IMG/VR virus record: IMGVR_UViG_3300015265_000005
Span: 1 to 45,164 of that record
Strand: one strand, 5' to 3'
DNA from: a virus
Length of the DNA stretch: 45,164 bases
Of the stretch, positions 7,885 through 42,350 are shown in pieces (within the stretch, counting starts at the first letter, position 1; each line of letters begins with the position of its first letter). The notes below the pieces were generated by a model, which was given only the letters and a program-made list of their open reading frames with translations, ran no database searches and was not told the origin of the DNA. A program made the translations under genes and the position numbers.

Positions 7885-7915
7885 TGCCGAATTGAAACGC
7901 ATACCGGGGGATATG

Positions 7916-8758
7916 ATGCGGCAAAAATTAGTAGTTAGCGTTAGCGGTGGTCGTTCATCAATGTATATGGCCAGGTTGCTGCAGCTAAATCATGCCAATC
8001 TTTGGGATATGGTTTTTATTTTCGCCAACACTGGTTGGGAGCATCCGCGCACGCTTGAATTTGTTCAAGAATGCTCGGTGGCATGGGATATGCCAATTGT
8101 CTGGTTGGAATCGGTCACAAACCCACAACGTGGAAAAGGGGTTTCCTTTCGCGTTGTCGATTTCAATACTGCAAGTCGTAACGGTGCTCCGTTCAGGGAC
8201 ATGATCAGCAAGCACGGTGTACCAAACGTAACGCGACCATTTTGCACAAAAGAGCTAAAAACACGCCCAACCTTTGCATACATTCGTGAGGTGCTTGGGT
8301 GGGGCGGTGAAAGCCGTATGGGTATCGAATATCAAATGGCGCTCGGCATTCGACAAGATGAGCCAAAGCGCTTGCGTCCGACACGTGGGAAGGTGTACCC
8401 GCTCGCAACGTGGTGGCCTGCCGACAAGCAAGATGTGCTTGATTGGTGGGAAGCTCAACCGTTTGATCTAAACATTATTGAACGCCACGGCAATTGCGTT
8501 TGGTGCTGGAAAAAATCCTTACGCAAACATTTGCTTAATCTTGGAGACGTGCGGGAATATTACGATTTCCCCGCAGAAATGGAACGCATGCACGGCTGTA
8601 CAGGCTCGGGATATACGGGGACACCCCACGTATTTTTCAGAGAAAACCGCAGCACCCTTGACCTGATAAAGCTGGCAGAAATTGCAACACCTGATGAGAG
8701 AATGGGCGCCAGATACGCTGAGGATGACGGCTGCTCAGAGTCGTGCGAAGCGTTTTAA
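7916..8758 (+). CDS. Phosphoadenosine phosphosulfate reductase family protein
   Basis: A 280-aa member of the PAPS reductase/ATP-pyrophosphatase (PP-loop) family. The nucleotide-binding loop is SVSGGRSSMYM near the N-terminus. RPFCTKELK, the MALGIRQDEPKR block and two Cys in NCVWCWKKS are typical of phage and DndC-like relatives. Such enzymes activate a group with ATP or reduce PAPS; in phages the true substrate is generally unknown, with nucleic-acid or thiol modification as options. The GGGGG at 7906-7910 is 5 nt from the ATG at 7916 but only 2 nt from the one at 7913, so I prefer 7916. It heads a three-gene cassette with its own promoter and terminator, set apart from the other genes. That arrangement suggests an acquired accessory unit. 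Confidence 0.88.
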   Translation: MRQKLVVSVSGGRSSMYMARLLQLNHANLWDMVFIFANTGWEHPRTLEFVQECSVAWDMPIVWLESVTNPQRGKGVSFRVVDFNTASRNGAPFRDMISKHGVPNVTRPFCTKELKTRPTFAYIREVLGWGGESRMGIEYQMALGIRQDEPKRLRPTRGKVYPLATWWPADKQDVLDWWEAQPFDLNIIERHGNCVWCWKKSLRKHLLNLGDVREYYDFPAEMERMHGCTGSGYTGTPHVFFRENRSTLDLIKLAEIATPDERMGARYAEDDGCSESCEAF

Positions 8759-32891: not shown

Positions 32892-33259
32892 GCTGCACCC
32901 ACTGACTTGACGATGTTGTTGAGGGCCTGGCTGCGTTCATAATCACCTTTGCCCGCGTACAGGATTGCCATTGCTTTGAGGTCAGGCGCCAGAAGCTGCA
33001 GCACTTCGCGCAGGGTGTCGCGTTCACGCAACGCTTGGGTCAGGTTGTTGCTGTAGCTTTCCTCATGGCTCGGTGGGTCAGGCAACAGCACTGGCGGCAA
33101 CGGCAGCACTTGAGGTTGTGAAATAGGGCCGTACTCAACATTGAGCAACCCTTTCAACCGTACAATTTCAGCGTTTGCGTCGTCAAAACGTACCCACGCC
33201 CCCGAATTGACAGCCTCTGCACTCCATTTACCAACTGCGTGTATTACGTAGCGTTGCAT
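32888..33259 (-). CDS. Hypothetical protein (123 aa)
   Basis: The start (MQRYVIHAVGKWSAEAVNSGAWVRFDDANAEIVRLKGLL) has a beta-helix part often found in small phage proteins. A Pro-rich linker (about 50-68) leads to a helical end (LTQALRERDTLREVLQLLAPDLKAMA). I use the second ATG of ATGACAATG because AGGGG is 6 nt from it and directly against the first (33265). Function unknown. Confidence 0.75.
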   Translation of the reverse strand: MQRYVIHAVGKWSAEAVNSGAWVRFDDANAEIVRLKGLLNVEYGPISQPQVLPLPPVLLPDPPSHEESYSNNLTQALRERDTLREVLQLLAPDLKAMAILYAGKGDYERSQALNNIVKSVGAA

Positions 33260-34343: not shown

Positions 34344-36965
34344 TTAACCAGTTGCTCCAAGCTGCGCCAGGTGCTGAATTTTCGTCAGCTCCAACATTGA
34401 GCGCAGAGTCTCGTTGCTATCACTGGCCACGCTGCCACGCTTCCACCAAACACGGTGCGCCCGACCATCCCACTTGATCACACCCTTTGGCGAGAAACCC
34501 ATTCTCGTGAGCATGTGGTTAACCGCCGTGGTTTTCGGAATGTCCATACCATCCTGTACGCAAACCGTCCTCATAGCCGCTGCTAGCGCGCTGGAGCTTA
34601 AAACGAACTGCCCGACACCCACAGCCCCGGTTTCGATACATTGACGCGCCACGGCTTCGTGAGCGTCTTCCCCGCCCATCTGCATTTCAGCCTTCTCACT
34701 GGTGTGTGGTGCCTTTGAGTTTGGCTTGAAATTCTCACTCACCTGATACTCAAGGAAGAACTTGCGCCACTCACCGCGCCTGGCGTCCTGCATGCTGTCA
34801 AACACGGCGTCATAGTGTTTGGTCAAACCATCCTCAGTGAGCCCCAGGGTGGCTGCCAGGCTGCGCAGGCTGCTGAATGGGGAAAAGATCACCCACCAGC
34901 GCCGGTCATTGTCTTCAAGCGGCACCGCGTCAACAAAGTTGGTGAAGGCGATGTAGTTGGTGACGTTGATGATTGACGCACCAGCCGGTTGGCCTTTGCG
35001 GTTGATCTTGAGCGTATTGTTGGTGATGGGCTCTTTGATGGCGTTGGCCACGGCGTAACGCTTGGCGCCGGTAATCATCAATTCCTCAAACGCCGTCACG
35101 CAGGAACCTTCCTGCCAGTCACCGAAATCTGAGCACACCAGTTTGGCGCCAACGCTGGTGGCGTTCGCAAATCCCATCACTGCTTGCATGGCGTTGATGA
35201 TCATGGATTTGCCGTCACCGGGCATACCTTTGATGATGGGAGCATAACGGCACTTCTTGCCGGGGTTCTGCGCGCACCAGGCCATCCAGTCCAACAGGTT
35301 CAAATACACCTCATTACGGTTGCCGCACAGGGCCTGCATATGGCGCAAGAATGCTTGGATAGCGTCAACCCCGCCCTGCGTGTAACCCAACGCAATCTCA
35401 GGGACGCTGCTCGGGCTGTACAGGTTTGCGTACCAGTGGCCCTCATGATTGAAAATCGGGTCACGACCTGGCAGGTACATGTAGTTTGAAACCGTCGACA
35501 TGTTCCAGCGCTGCAGACACCACTTGGCTGCATCCTCACGGTCACCGTTTGGCTTCTGCGGCATCATGCGCTCAAAGTCAGCGTTGAAGCTGGTGCGCGT
35601 CATCATTTCGGCGTTGATCAGATTAAAGAAGCAATCGTTGGCTTTGACGTAGACGTGACTGTTGGCCCACTCGGGAACAATGCCGCCGTCATCGTCCTCA
35701 ACCACCTGCAGGCGCACCATAGCCTTGCAATCGTTGATGCTGACGGGGAACCCCCAATCACTCATGCGCTTCTTGACGGCGGCAGCCAGCCAGTCACGGT
35801 CAAGGTTGGCAATTGACCTGTCAGCAGCAATCTGCGGCACCACATCGTTGCGCAGCTCTGCGTCATCGTTGGTGCCCATGATCAGCTCATAATACTCTTG
35901 GCGGCTCATGCCAGCCTCAAGCGTCACCGTGGCATCAAGCTTTGCAACCGTCTCTTTGTCCTGGCAAACGTTGCGCGTCTGGCGGCAGGCTTTGGCAACG
36001 GTCAACTCACTGAGGTAGGTACGGTGAGTAGTCCACTTGTCACGCACCAGCTTTGACTGCCACATAAGGCGCGTCATCCGCTCAGCATCACACCCCGTCC
36101 AAAATGCCAGGTGGGAAGCCAGTGCGAAATCAACCCCGGTGCCGTCATACGGCAAGCTGTCAGAGCGCTCAGGGTCAGGGTACTGCGCAGACAAAACCGG
36201 GATGTTGCACGTCCACAAGTCAGCAAAAGTCGCCTTGCCGGAAAACATCCCATCCGCTGAGCGCGACTGCATTGCACGCCTGATCAGCTCAGCATCACTT
36301 TCAGGCCCGCGCCAATCCGCCCTTGGCCCGTTACCGCAGAGCACCGCAACACTCTGCTCGGGCTCAAAGATGGTGCCAGCAATGTAGGTAGCCATTTCCT
36401 GCAGGTGCGTATCTGCAGAGCCCCAAGCCTGGCCACTGGTACCAAAGGCAATGCCACGCCCACTGGTGTAGAACTCAAGATCAACGCCGGGATTCTCAGC
36501 TACCCATTTGCGGGTTGGTCGGGTACGGTGCCCAGGTGGGGGACACCCGCGCCCTATGAGGTGAATGCCCTTTCCACTGGAACTGTACTCAAAAAAGGCC
36601 CCCGGCAGGTTTTGGTAGAACCATGCTGCCCAAGGTGAGAGAGCACCAGCACTGTCAACACAACTGTCAACATCAAGGAACCAATAGCCACAATCAGCAG
36701 TAACCATAAAACCGAGCGTGTAGGCATAGCCGTCAAGCCTCCCAAGGTGCGCGCTGAGCTGAGCCGTGGCCACCGCGTATGATGTCCACGAGTATGGTTT
36801 TTGAGCATCGATCCCCTTGAGCTTACCGTGCTCATCGAACTCAATTCGCCCGTCTGGATGGACTGGCACCTTTATGTATTTCCCCGGCTTTTTGGGGTCG
36901 TGGGCTAGCCGCCACACAAACCATTGATTGACGGCGGTCATTCCCGCCAAAGCAGTTGCAAGCAT
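34344..36965 (-). CDS. PrimPol/SF3 (D5-like) primase-helicase
   Basis: An 873-aa two-part replication protein. The N-terminal archaeo-eukaryotic primase-like domain has YWFLDVDS (Asp98 and Asp100) and SSGKGIHLI (His135). The C-terminal superfamily 3 helicase has Walker A GMPGDGKS (about 580-587), VTAFEEL as Walker B, and YIAFTNFVDAVPLEDNDRRWWVIF as sensor and arginine-finger region. It should prime and unwind at the phage origin, working with the family B polymerase. The second ATG of ATGACAATG has AAGG 9 nt away, so I start at 36965; upstream extensions reach into the SLOG gene. The adjacent repeat array fits an origin next to its own helicase. Confidence 0.92.
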   Translation of the reverse strand: MLATALAGMTAVNQWFVWRLAHDPKKPGKYIKVPVHPDGRIEFDEHGKLKGIDAQKPYSWTSYAVATAQLSAHLGRLDGYAYTLGFMVTADCGYWFLDVDSCVDSAGALSPWAAWFYQNLPGAFFEYSSSGKGIHLIGRGCPPPGHRTRPTRKWVAENPGVDLEFYTSGRGIAFGTSGQAWGSADTHLQEMATYIAGTIFEPEQSVAVLCGNGPRADWRGPESDAELIRRAMQSRSADGMFSGKATFADLWTCNIPVLSAQYPDPERSDSLPYDGTGVDFALASHLAFWTGCDAERMTRLMWQSKLVRDKWTTHRTYLSELTVAKACRQTRNVCQDKETVAKLDATVTLEAGMSRQEYYELIMGTNDDAELRNDVVPQIAADRSIANLDRDWLAAAVKKRMSDWGFPVSINDCKAMVRLQVVEDDDGGIVPEWANSHVYVKANDCFFNLINAEMMTRTSFNADFERMMPQKPNGDREDAAKWCLQRWNMSTVSNYMYLPGRDPIFNHEGHWYANLYSPSSVPEIALGYTQGGVDAIQAFLRHMQALCGNRNEVYLNLLDWMAWCAQNPGKKCRYAPIIKGMPGDGKSMIINAMQAVMGFANATSVGAKLVCSDFGDWQEGSCVTAFEELMITGAKRYAVANAIKEPITNNTLKINRKGQPAGASIINVTNYIAFTNFVDAVPLEDNDRRWWVIFSPFSSLRSLAATLGLTEDGLTKHYDAVFDSMQDARRGEWRKFFLEYQVSENFKPNSKAPHTSEKAEMQMGGEDAHEAVARQCIETGAVGVGQFVLSSSALAAAMRTVCVQDGMDIPKTTAVNHMLTRMGFSPKGVIKWDGRAHRVWWKRGSVASDSNETLRSMLELTKIQHLAQLGATG

Positions 36966-36967
36966 TG

Positions 36968-37435
36968 TCATTTGCCTTGTTCTAGTAGGTTGTCGATGGC
37001 AACGCCACGCTTGGTTGCATACTTGATGCAATTGGCGGCGCCACCTGGCGAACCGTCCCACATCGCCATAACGCGGGTGCAGCGGTCAACCATCCATTCG
37101 TTGCGAAGCTGCATCGCGTACCCGCAGTAACCGCCAGGGAACACAATGGTTTGGGATGAGCACAAGGCAAGCAGGGCGCCATAACTGGCTTGTGCTTCAA
37201 GTGGCCACGCCTTTTCCTGCCCTGCAAATGGTATTGCCGCGTGAACCGGGATACCCAAACTGACGGCTGCCCAGCCAACGGCCTGATCCCAACCAAGCGC
37301 CATGCCGACAATCACTGCATCTGGTTTTGTACGGGTGAGATATTGGGCTGCGATAGCCCTTAGGTTGATTGCGGCGTCTGCCCCATAGCCGCCTAGTTTG
37401 TCTGGCCTATGGCCTGTTGCACTGATGATTAGCAT
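36968..37435 (-). CDS. SLOG/DUF1273-like (YspA-type) protein
   Basis: A 155-aa Rossmann-like protein. Signature parts are ISATGHRPDKLGGYG, VIVGMALGWDQAVGWAA, HAAIPFAGQEKAWP and AMWDGSPGGAANCI, typical of the SLOG superfamily, which binds nucleotides or nucleotide-derived signals. In hosts some members act in defence; phage copies are common but unassigned. It could sense or bind a nucleotide messenger (inference). The second ATG (37435) suits AAGG at 9 nt. A long structured leader precedes it, and it overlaps the primase start. Confidence 0.85.
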   Translation of the reverse strand: MLIISATGHRPDKLGGYGADAAINLRAIAAQYLTRTKPDAVIVGMALGWDQAVGWAAVSLGIPVHAAIPFAGQEKAWPLEAQASYGALLALCSSQTIVFPGGYCGYAMQLRNEWMVDRCTRVMAMWDGSPGGAANCIKYATKRGVAIDNLLEQGK

Positions 37436-37455
37436 TGTCATTTGCCTTATATGCG

Positions 37456-37532
37456 AAAAAGCCCGTAACACACTGGATGGCTGCCAAGCTCACAGGGGTC
37501 AGTACCCCTGCCCAGTGTGTTACGGGCTTTTT
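37456..37532 (-). ncRNA. Leader attenuator or small structured RNA with a 21-bp perfect stem
   Basis: Arms 37456-37476 and 37512-37532 are perfect inverted repeats of 21 bp, A5 at one end and T5 at the other, so it works as a terminator on either strand. The 35-nt loop contains its own hairpin, AGGGGT/ACCCCT (37494-37509). A candidate promoter at 37558-37586 would start leftward RNA near 37551, so this structure lies in the 5' leader of the SLOG gene. The transcript would be a leader of about 115 nt, or an RNA of about 95 nt if it terminates here. Confidence 0.65.
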
Positions 37533-37557
37533 ACTGATTGATTTGAACTTGGCGCAG

Positions 37558-37746: not shown

Positions 37747-37914
37747 TTACGCACTCGGTGCCGGGGTGTCAACAGCCTTTAATGCAGCATCTTTATCGTT
37801 CCAGCCCTGCTGCCAGTGGCGGCGCTCCCAATCCTTGCAGGCTGGTGGCGGTACGCAGGCTTTACCGTCCCGGCGCTGATTGGCCCCGCAGTGATACCAA
37901 CGTGTGTTTGTCAT
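37747..37914 (-). CDS. RMF/CrpP-like microprotein D (55 aa)
   Basis: Last of four tandem small genes. It starts ATG at 37914 overlapping the previous stop (ATGA), with GAGGTG 5 nt before it. WYHCGANQRRDGKAC then PPPACKDWERRHWQQGWNDKD carries the W..GW ending that marks ribosome modulation factor and the related Rmf/CrpP fold. GWNDKD is identical in gene A (38246-38416). Three Cys and one His are present. Function is not established; ribosome binding or antagonism of a host process are possibilities by analogy only. Confidence 0.72.
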   Translation of the reverse strand: MTNTRWYHCGANQRRDGKACVPPPACKDWERRHWQQGWNDKDAALKAVDTPAPSA

Positions 37915-38090
37915 TGGGTCACCTCAGGCTTTTGTTCACCGGCCTTGTGAAACTCAGCGGCTGCAGATTTAAAACCTTCCTCCCAAATAAGCGCCTTTGC
38001 GGAGCGAGCGCCGTACGGGTTATTGATGATCAACCCTTGCCCGTTTTGGAATTCCTGCTTACCTTCCTTGAACCATTTGCTATCACGCAT
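37911..38090 (-). CDS. RMF/CrpP-like microprotein C (59 aa)
   Basis: Starts ATG at 38090 with GAGGGG 7 nt upstream and overlaps the previous gene by 8 nt. It gives the clearest family match: INNPYGARSAKALIWEEGFKSA, with NPY near the start of the core and W..GF at its end, as in RMF (CPY...W..GW). A longer frame from 38204 would overlap gene B almost fully and has no ribosome site. Confidence 0.75.
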   Translation of the reverse strand: MRDSKWFKEGKQEFQNGQGLIINNPYGARSAKALIWEEGFKSAAAEFHKAGEQKPEVTQ

Positions 38091-38274
38091 TATCAAACCC
38101 CTCATTCCAAAATTGATGTTCAACCGAACCTTTCTTGTGCGGGTTGCGCTCATCCCGCATTTGGCTCCAACGCTCTTTTGATTGACAGGTGGTGTGCTTG
38201 CCAATCATCCGCGCTTTGAAGGCACCCGAGTCAAACGCGCATTGCTCACGGGTATTGCTTGGCTTTCTGCTCAT
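38083..38274 (-). CDS. RMF/CrpP-like microprotein B (63 aa)
   Basis: Overlaps gene A by 29 nt; AAGGA lies 9 nt before the ATG. The basic N-terminus (SRKPSNTREQCAFDSGAFKARMIGKHTTC) leads to RNPHKKGSVEHQFWNEGFDNA, the same NP...W..GF pattern ending at the C-terminus. The divergent N-terminus with two Cys makes it the least typical of the four. Confidence 0.68.
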   Translation of the reverse strand: MSRKPSNTREQCAFDSGAFKARMIGKHTTCQSKERWSQMRDERNPHKKGSVEHQFWNEGFDNA

Positions 38275-38416
38275 CTAGCAATTCCTTATCTTTGTCATTC
38301 CAACCGGCCAACCACCATGACCACGCCCACTGCATGTACGCATTCGGGTTGGTCAGTTTGCCGACACCATCAAGCCTGGCTTTCTCGCCTTGGTAATACG
38401 GGCGCGGCGGCTTCAA
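38246..38416 (-). CDS. RMF/CrpP-like microprotein A (56 aa, TTG start)
   Basis: First of the tandem cluster. It starts with TTG at 38416, overlapping the previous TGA (TTGA), with AAGGG 9 nt upstream. The core reads GEKARLDGVGKLTNPNAY then WAWSWWLAGWNDKD, the Gly..NP..Y...W..GW layout of RMF-like proteins. The tail is charged (KELLDEQKAKQYP). The unusual start codon and stop overlap suggest low, coupled expression. Confidence 0.72.
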   Translation of the reverse strand: MKPPRPYYQGEKARLDGVGKLTNPNAYMQWAWSWWLAGWNDKDKELLDEQKAKQYP

Positions 38417-38799
38417 AGCGCGCAACCCTTGGCGGTGTTTGTCACCACTGCCTCACACATCTGCTGATGGTATTCAAGGTCAGATGTTGGGGTGCGCGCT
38501 TCTTCAACAGGCGGTCCGTCCATGCCGTCAGGCCCAGGGCTGAAAACATAAAAAGCGCCTTCACTGTCAAGCTCAAAGTGTGCCTTTGTATCGATCGCCA
38601 GGCGCACGCACTGACCCCAATTGGTGAGCGGGTGAAAGTGCTTGCCGTTCGCAAAAATCATGAACTCATAGCGAATATGGCGAACGTCCACGGTGTAACC
38701 GGCAGCCAACGCAGCACGCGCTTGCAACCGCAGCTCATCTTTCGGAAGTGCCGCCAGGTCTTCTGCCGTAACAATTGGTTTGATTGTGCCGATGCTCAT
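38413..38799 (-). CDS. Hypothetical protein (128 aa)
   Basis: A two-part protein: a helical N-terminus (AEDLAALPKDELRLQARAALAAGYTVDV) and a beta-rich middle (HIRYEFMIFANGKHFHPLTNWGQCVRLAIDTKAHFEL). No known family or metal site. It is coupled by ATGA to the membrane protein upstream and by TTGA to the RMF-like cluster downstream, so it is part of the same operon. Confidence 0.75.
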   Translation of the reverse strand: MSIGTIKPIVTAEDLAALPKDELRLQARAALAAGYTVDVRHIRYEFMIFANGKHFHPLTNWGQCVRLAIDTKAHFELDSEGAFYVFSPGPDGMDGPPVEEARTPTSDLEYHQQMCEAVVTNTAKGCAL

Positions 38800-41080: not shown

Positions 41081-41914
41081 TCACTTGCGCACCTCATCGA
41101 CCTCAGCCAGCAACGCCCGAGCAGCATCAAGCTCATCAGGCAAAGGCTCATGCGTTCCGCTGCACTGCCGCAGGCTGGCAATCAGACGCTCTACCAGTGC
41201 CTCAGGGATGCGCTTAGGTTTGAGCACAGCGTTGGTCACCTTGGTCTTGCCGTTCGCCCTGGCCACGACAAGAGCTGCGCCCAGCACCTCACCGGCCTTG
41301 TCGCCGTGAGTCTTCACAGCCTGCGCGGCAATGGTTGGCTTGACCTCACCGGCCTTTATCATTTCGTGCACGTCGGTGTTGCCGCTGGCCAGGGTGAGAA
41401 TGCGCTGAATCGTGGCCAACTTCTCACCGCTGCGCTCAGCAATTTGTGCAGGTGACCAGCCAAAGGCAATCAGCTTGTTATAAACCCGCCCGAGCCCCAG
41501 CGGGTCAACTTCAGCGCGCTTGGTGCTGGTTGCCTGGCGCAATAGCTGCTCGGCATCGTTCCCGATAAAAGGCTTTACAGGTATCCAGGCTTCAAGGATT
41601 TCCGGGTTTTCCTTGTTTGGGGTACGCGGCAATGTTCCGCGCTCATCCATCTTGCGGTAGGCAAAGCGCCGGGTGTGACCTTGCACAACCCAAACACCAC
41701 CCTCAGCACGCGGAACAACCTCAAGCGCTTCGACGGTGCCGCCTGCTTCAAGGTACGCAACCAACTCGTCAATGTCTTGTTGGTACTTTGGCGAATCATA
41801 GTCACGCACGATGTTAAAGCCGGGGCGCTCGTGGATATCCTCAAGGCGCACCGAGTTAGCTTCGCCGCGTTTTACCGTGCCGTCATGGCGCATTGATTTA
41901 AAGGTTGGTTGCAT
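41081..41914 (-). CDS. ParB-like protein
   Basis: A 277-aa protein. The ParB/sulfiredoxin N-terminal fold shows VRLEDIHERPGFNIVRDYD (about 23-41) and WVVQGHTRRFAYRKMDERGT (about 75-94). A helix-turn-helix follows (FGWSPAQIAERSGEKLATIQRILTLA, about 151-176). Lytic phage ParB-like proteins act as DNA binders or nucleases rather than in partition; no ParA gene is present. The GHxR core is intact, so CTP or DNA handling is plausible. ATG 41914 is preferred to a TTG at 41944. Confidence 0.85.
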   Translation of the reverse strand: MQPTFKSMRHDGTVKRGEANSVRLEDIHERPGFNIVRDYDSPKYQQDIDELVAYLEAGGTVEALEVVPRAEGGVWVVQGHTRRFAYRKMDERGTLPRTPNKENPEILEAWIPVKPFIGNDAEQLLRQATSTKRAEVDPLGLGRVYNKLIAFGWSPAQIAERSGEKLATIQRILTLASGNTDVHEMIKAGEVKPTIAAQAVKTHGDKAGEVLGAALVVARANGKTKVTNAVLKPKRIPEALVERLIASLRQCSGTHEPLPDELDAARALLAEVDEVRK

Positions 41915-42350
41915 TGTTGTTGTCTCGCTCTGCTGTATCGCCAATCGGAAAGAAATCGTTTAGGAATTGAACTTGTTTCATTTGAAAGCTGTGACACTTC
42001 TTTGCGTTTTCGTACGCAGCCAACAACTTTGGCGTACGGCGCTCGCTGGTGCCAAAGTTTACTTTCTTTTCAAAGTACCTGATGCGCTCAGAGTAATACA
42101 GAACACCTTTCCAGTGATGCAGCCGCAAAGCGCGCAGACCTTCAAGACGCGCAACATCTGCGACAAGTTCAACACTCACAGCGTGTTCTATGTCGTCAAG
42201 CGCAGCAATCTCATGCTTGTAATAGCTAACGTTGTCACCGTCGTTATCGTTTGCAGCAACTCCAAGCACACAAAGCAACGCCCTGCGCAACGGGGCAATA
42301 TGCCCGTTGATCATTTCGGCAAGAGAGCCGTGACCTTTTAAATGTATCAC
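41898..42350 (-). CDS. Hypothetical helical protein (150 aa)
   Basis: GTG start at 42350 overlapping the upstream stop. It is helical and charged (ALDDIEHAVSVELVADVARLEGLRALRLHHWKGVLYYSERIRYFEKKV), with a short polar, Asn-rich C-terminus. No Cys cluster, signal or membrane segment. Unknown role in the early operon. Confidence 0.72.
   Translation of the reverse strand: MIHLKGHGSLAEMINGHIAPLRRALLCVLGVAANDNDGDNVSYYKHEIAALDDIEHAVSVELVADVARLEGLRALRLHHWKGVLYYSERIRYFEKKVNFGTSERRTPKLLAAYENAKKCHSFQMKQVQFLNDFFPIGDTAERDNNNATNL

Follow-up and report, generated by a model that had tools for sequence, protein, structure and literature searches.

A tandem set of four overlapping phage genes predicted to encode diverged RMF-superfamily microproteins

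In E. coli RMF, residues R3, K5, and R11 serve ribosome binding, R3 and K5 by contacting helix 28 of 16S rRNA, and G23 and R45 serve dimerization (accessible part of PMC8778775). According to the available sections of PMC13411936, BatR (PA3049), a diverged RMF homolog of Pseudomonas, is not used for hibernation and binds the kinase SrkA, whose overexpression kills the cell by way of pyocin and Pf4. Phage Milano carries two RMF-superfamily proteins as well as a ParB-like protein in one genome (excerpted text of PMC6588377); the accessions of the two RMF-superfamily proteins are 16 numbers apart in that excerpt, and their genes are therefore probably not adjacent. Both the Milano pair and the proteins covered by the model Rmf_like_phage (NF041887) resemble the set described here in being phage-borne and of the RMF fold. 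Further relatives are collected in the models of the Rmf/CrpP family and of CrpP-related proteins (NF041886 and NF041856); a drug-modifying activity has been claimed for CrpP. A literature search, with subscription journals mostly outside its scope, returned neither a tandem set nor a study of what phage RMF-like proteins do, and RMF is not mentioned in the available part of PMC11256456. Phage RMF-like proteins are already known, and what is new here is a tandem, diversified set of them.

The set lies in a 45,164-base virus record, the whole of which we call the window. Matches to sheath and baseplate proteins indicate that the phage is contractile-tailed. Positions 37747 to 38416 hold four overlapping minus-strand ORFs, in exact agreement with the span for which an earlier note on this DNA had claimed four consecutive overlapping genes of 55 to 63 aa. 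We call the four genes and their families fA, fB, fC, and fD. The features of the region are as follows.

41081 to 41944, minus strand: ParB-like protein, upstream of the cassette (phrog_1033, 2.2e-56)
38413 to 38799, minus strand: gene preceding fA, 128 aa, no family match, joined to fA by a TTGA overlap
38246 to 38416, minus strand: fA (P0004), putative RMF-superfamily microprotein, 56 aa, TTG start at 38416
38083 to 38274, minus strand: fB (P0003), putative RMF-superfamily microprotein, 63 aa
37911 to 38090, minus strand: fC (P0002), putative RMF-superfamily microprotein, 59 aa, optional member
37747 to 37914, minus strand: fD (P0001), putative RMF-superfamily microprotein of 55 aa for which the two-helix fold of RMF is predicted
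37716 to 37676, 37620 to 37582, and 37538 to 37456, minus strand: GC-rich hairpins 1 to 3 with T-runs, 3′ of fD, likely terminators
36968 to 37471, minus strand: YspA-like protein of the SLOG fold, encoded between the cassette and the primase; its PF06908 score of 25.9 bits falls slightly short of the cut-off
34344 to 37061, minus strand: primase/polymerase-helicase (NrS-1 polymerase HBD, DUF5906, VapE-like), downstream of the cassette

The genes follow one another in the direction of transcription as fA, fB, fC, and fD, with overlaps of 29, 8, and 4 nt, respectively. Between the preceding gene and fA the overlap is 4 nt, shared by the stop of the former and the TTG start of the latter; an alternative upstream TTG at 38425 would extend fA to 59 aa. 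A purine-rich, SD-like stretch is found 5′ of each of the four starts, and the overlapping starts suggest that the cassette may be translationally coupled. The three hairpins that follow fD have energies of −21.4, −17.0, and −50.4 kcal/mol (z of −4.6, −2.8, and −8.3); the third, at 37456 to 37538, is 83 nt long, with a stem of more than 20 pairs and T-runs at its ends. They are probably the terminators of the cassette, although they were absent from the list returned by a terminator pattern scan. An Rfam search gave no match, and PADLOC matched none of the four proteins. Elsewhere in the window, at 7892 to 8758 on the plus strand, is a gene for a PAPS-reductase-fold protein that matches the defense protein SspD (5.3e-10).

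The core motif NP...W..G(W/F), said in the earlier note to be shared by all four proteins, holds in its NP part for three of them (NPN in fA, NPH in fB, and NPY in fC); fD has PPPA in its place. The identical GWNDKD reported for two members was indeed found, in fA and fD. In fB, a variable insert separates helix 1 from the NPH motif.

To what extent the proteins are RMF/CrpP-like, as the note had described them, was assessed with profile searches. The Pfam RMF model (PF04957; curated cut-off of 27.9 bits) had no match at cut-off in the whole window record; it gave 12.8 bits for fC and no match for fA, fB, or fD. Relatives did better: fA and fB of one related phage (locus L014) scored 29.3 and 29.2 bits, above the cut-off, and fC of L001 and fD of L002 scored 18.7 and 14.0 bits, below it; four of the 10 proteins in this comparison had no RMF match. 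The absence of any RMF-like hit, which the note had named as an outcome that would speak against it, is therefore not what we observed, since relatives of all four families match Pfam RMF. At E ≤ 1, the model matched 14 of 23 members (best 3.9e-8), and the NCBIfam RMF model matched nine of the same number (best 7.5e-8). A joint profile of the families found three PDB entries, all of them RMF (4v8g, 3.4e-4; 6h4n, 5.2e-4; 2jrm, 3.7e-3), and nothing else below E = 4. In Pseudomonas genomes, it matched frames of ~75 aa, the size of Pseudomonas RMF, at ~1e-5.

When each single family was compared directly with five bacterial RMFs, profile against profile, the signal was weak (P of 0.003 for fA, 0.005 for fD, 0.036 for fC, and 0.086 for fB). 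For this reason, our case for homology to RMF is built on relatives that Pfam matches and on the test with left-out families described below; linked in this way, the four families can be assigned to the RMF superfamily by sequence comparison. The window proteins, taken alone, are too diverged for a curated RMF assignment. Matches to CrpP-type models came from relatives and were weak (NF041886 in 6 of 23 members, best E of 3.5e-4; NF041856 in 2 of 23, best E of 6.2e-3); the window proteins matched neither model up to E = 10. Rmf_like_phage, whose cut-off is 40 bits, had no match above it in 31 records and weak matches in five. The phage family phrog_10492 was matched by fA (E = 1.2e-9) and by 12 of the 23 members, but not by fB, fC, or fD of the window. 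In two fA homologs (L019 and L028), the RMF-like part is preceded by an N-terminal stretch that, judged from its sequence, resembles a helix-turn-helix. The GcrA, HTH_23, and HTH_7 models each matched one of the 23 members weakly.

Kinship of the families with one another was examined using HMMs built without fB, fC, or fD in turn, which were searched against 9,598 ORFs from the window and 76 related loci. All 10 fB members (E from 1.9e-9 to 0.18), all five fC members (3e-4 to 2.1), and all nine fD members (8e-8 to 0.0046) were recovered. The best nominal background row, in L167, is at the position of that locus's own fA homolog, and the next rows stood at 0.23, 0.52, and 0.99; recovered members beat this real background with the exception of L014 fC (E = 2.1). 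With the fA profile, fD members (best 3.7e-7) and L014 fB (1.4e-6) were picked up as well. At the level of sequence profiles, these results demonstrate homology among the four families. In a tree built from few columns and with rough support, the members of fB, of fC, and of fD cluster by family and not by phage, fC on a very long branch. A recent duplication origin of the four was rejected on the basis of this grouping; they are probably anciently diverged paralogs of one superfamily, which is part of the reading we favor below.

Structure prediction is consistent with this assignment. The AlphaFold2 model of fD (pLDDT of 80.2, pTM of 0.60) has helices at residues 5 to 15 and 28 to 49, that is, the two helices and linker of ~13 residues by which we define the RMF fold. 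In a Foldseek search, the two best PDB chains for this model were RMFs, with a TM of 0.69/0.70 and rmsd of 1.9 for 9iot, but E values were above 1; Z-scores against RMF chains were 6.5 and 5.9, and the next chain had 2.8. In the viral set, phage proteins that carry the name ribosome modulation factor were among the matches, at E values of no less than 0.1. The fD protein is among the members least RMF-like in sequence, yet it is predicted to adopt the two-helix fold. The fB model is of low confidence (pLDDT of 56.8). On the note's second contrary outcome, a difference in predicted fold among the four, the modeling thus bears in part, through an RMF fold for fD and a low-confidence model for fB. 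An RMF/CrpP-like fold is thus supported by modeling for fD. Taken together, the superfamily and fold parts of the earlier RMF/CrpP-like description are supported, the former through relatives and the latter by the fD model.

Compared to RMF, the cassette shares the superfamily, the predicted two-helix fold (fD), the G-x6-G spacing, and the W-x2-G(W/F) core. It differs in being phage-borne, in consisting of four tandem paralogs that each score below the cut-off, and in lacking the basic (K/R)RxKRD N-terminus and R45. The positions of R3 and K5 have no counterpart in fA, fC, and fD, since the N-terminus of these proteins is ~6 residues shorter; fB has K and S there. The position of R45 is occupied by N, D, K, and N in fA, fB, fC, and fD, respectively, and in single-copy fA homologs by H (48 of 67) or N (17 of 67). 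At the position of R11, fA and fD keep the arginine, fC has K, and fB has C; at that of G23, fA, fC, and fD keep the glycine, and fB has I. The fold, together with some of the surface, thus appears to be retained, but the full set of hibernation residues is not. With R3/K5 and R45 missing, classical 100S hibernation by the four proteins is unlikely, which bears on the note's suggestion that they may act as a multi-subunit set for host takeover or ribosome control.

Because the fold and a partial surface are kept, the hibernation set is incomplete, and BatR provides a precedent for a change of role, we adopt, at somewhat less than an even chance, the reading that the cassette consists of coupled, anciently diverged RMF/CrpP-fold paralogs in a phage replication region that serve as diversified docking proteins for host targets and do not form 100S ribosomes. 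The four proteins would be made together during genome replication and would bind host targets, each paralog being specialized for its own. Docking on the 30S subunit, close to where the mRNA exits, has probably been retained by at least one of them (fD or fA), with no dimerization of ribosomes. Other members may have turned into protein-binding regulators, as BatR did. Most likely, 100S ribosomes would not be formed by any of them.

The distribution of the families bears on the host and on how unusual the set is. Relatives of fA were found in 76 viral loci, nine of which have three to four members; with the window included, 10 of 77 loci carry a multi-member set, a count that may be too low, as the contig breaks off within some of the loci. 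The joint profile, applied to 31 whole records, found four members in four, three in six, and one in 21, although these counts are partly circular because the profile (A1) was built from families in the same records. Among 398 Pseudomonas genomes, with 15 candidates scored per genome, at least 56 had a match, one of them two matches on different contigs, and none had a tandem set. The claim that a tandem set is unusual is borne out by these figures. In genome contigs, fA relatives were present at seven loci, six in Pseudomonas and one, a short and doubtful match, in a Dehalococcoidia MAG; 53 candidate stretches for fB included no relative. A plasmid search with L014 fA was negative. A phage collection yielded two records for fA and five for L014 fA, with no fC match and no DNA match to the region; in the stretches of phages Touem01 and Psp6 that were examined, the fA homolog had no tandem partner nearby. 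Since the fA-bearing contigs are mostly from Pseudomonas, the host is probably a Pseudomonas relative.

An alternative is that the set mimics BatR and binds host kinases or other regulators in place of ribosomes, through which it could adjust, for instance, stress or cell-death responses during infection. The link from SrkA to cell death and the fA relatives in Pseudomonas (six of seven loci) would agree with this, as would the acidity of fC relatives (pI of 5.3 to 5.7 in the three computed), which counts against RNA binding by fC. Against it, the host genus is itself inferred, and the extra C-terminal helix of BatR is absent from the fD model, which shows two helices only (the fB model is too low in confidence to be compared with it). 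BatR, as described in the available sections of its source, also differs from the cassette in being a single chromosomal gene and resembles it in being a diverged RMF homolog in the probable host genus. We regard exclusive signaling as a rather unlikely alternative. Improbable in our estimate is a broader proposal, a combinatorial set of RMF-fold proteins that are each tuned to a different ribosome or stress-regulator surface (BatR-like mimicry of kinase partners), kept in fixed proportion by coupled translation, and reprogram translation and cell-death signaling together.

The docking-protein reading places the cassette in a replication region, and the neighborhood is conserved in part. An equivalent of the 128-aa gene precedes fA in eight related contigs (L001 to L008), and the primase/polymerase-helicase lies downstream of the cassette in all nine multi-member relatives. 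ParB-like homologs are present in 13 of 30 relative loci. A primase downstream and a ParB-like gene upstream fit the setting of a replication-stage operon. Phages that otherwise differ also have ParB-like genes close to RMF-like ones (L015 and, per annotation, Psp6, which is L182), and in L008 an equivalent of the SLOG-fold YspA-like gene can be seen downstream of the cassette. In six loci (L009, L010, L013, L022, L023, and L025), a single fA homolog lies a few bases 3′ of a gene that we take, from its sequence, to be SSB-like. The same surroundings could be explained by a family of small phage proteins that bind phage DNA or replication proteins and have merely reused the fold: the cassette adjoins a primase and has ParB-like genes upstream, and fA genes follow SSB-like genes in several phages. 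This argument is one of gene position, however, and the four window proteins had no DNA-binding family match in profile searches, so we consider it doubtful and give it little weight.

Dimerization or inactivation of host ribosomes by one or more of the four proteins in the manner of E. coli RMF is less probable still. The RMF homology, the predicted fold, the G23 and R11 equivalents in fA and fD, and the basic character of fB and fD (pI of 9.5 and 9.0 in the window) would all suit it, but the missing R3/K5 counterparts and the replaced R45 speak against it, and a lytic program requires active ribosomes.

The order fA-fB-fD was found again in the eight contigs L001 to L008. The position of fC varies: it lies between fB and fD in L001 and L003 and after fD in L008, and is missing from the other five, and the L014 phage carries fA, an unrelated ORF, fB, and fC, without fD. 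Thus, fC has been gained, lost, or moved among relatives. In total, fB is present in nine contigs and fD in eight, all of which carry the cassette or the L014 variant. For the L014 phage, a weak candidate for a fourth, dispersed copy was noticed at contig positions 33152 to 33244 (L179, 484 to 726, minus strand; 80-aa ORF, RMF-like match of 16.2 bits). The dN/dS values were ≤0.39 in every computable gene pair, saturated pairs yielding no value: 0.05 for fA (one of six pairs computable, the others saturated), 0.09 to 0.29 for fB (four of six), 0.10 for fC (one of one), and 0.26 to 0.39 for fD (six of six). In the computable pairs, purifying selection acts on all four genes. A selfish or neutral expansion leaving tandem paralogs without a distinct joint function would accord with the loss of fC from five of the eight closest relatives, but it is very unlikely in view of this selection and of the retention of fB and fD together in all eight.

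Many phages carry RMF-like proteins, for which we found no reported function in the literature searched. The cassette offers a natural series of three to four related members per operon with optional parts, in which ribosome-binding members could be told apart by experiment from those that bind other targets. The set is relevant, too, to the question of how a ribosome factor turns into a regulator, a change reported for BatR in the available sections of its source.
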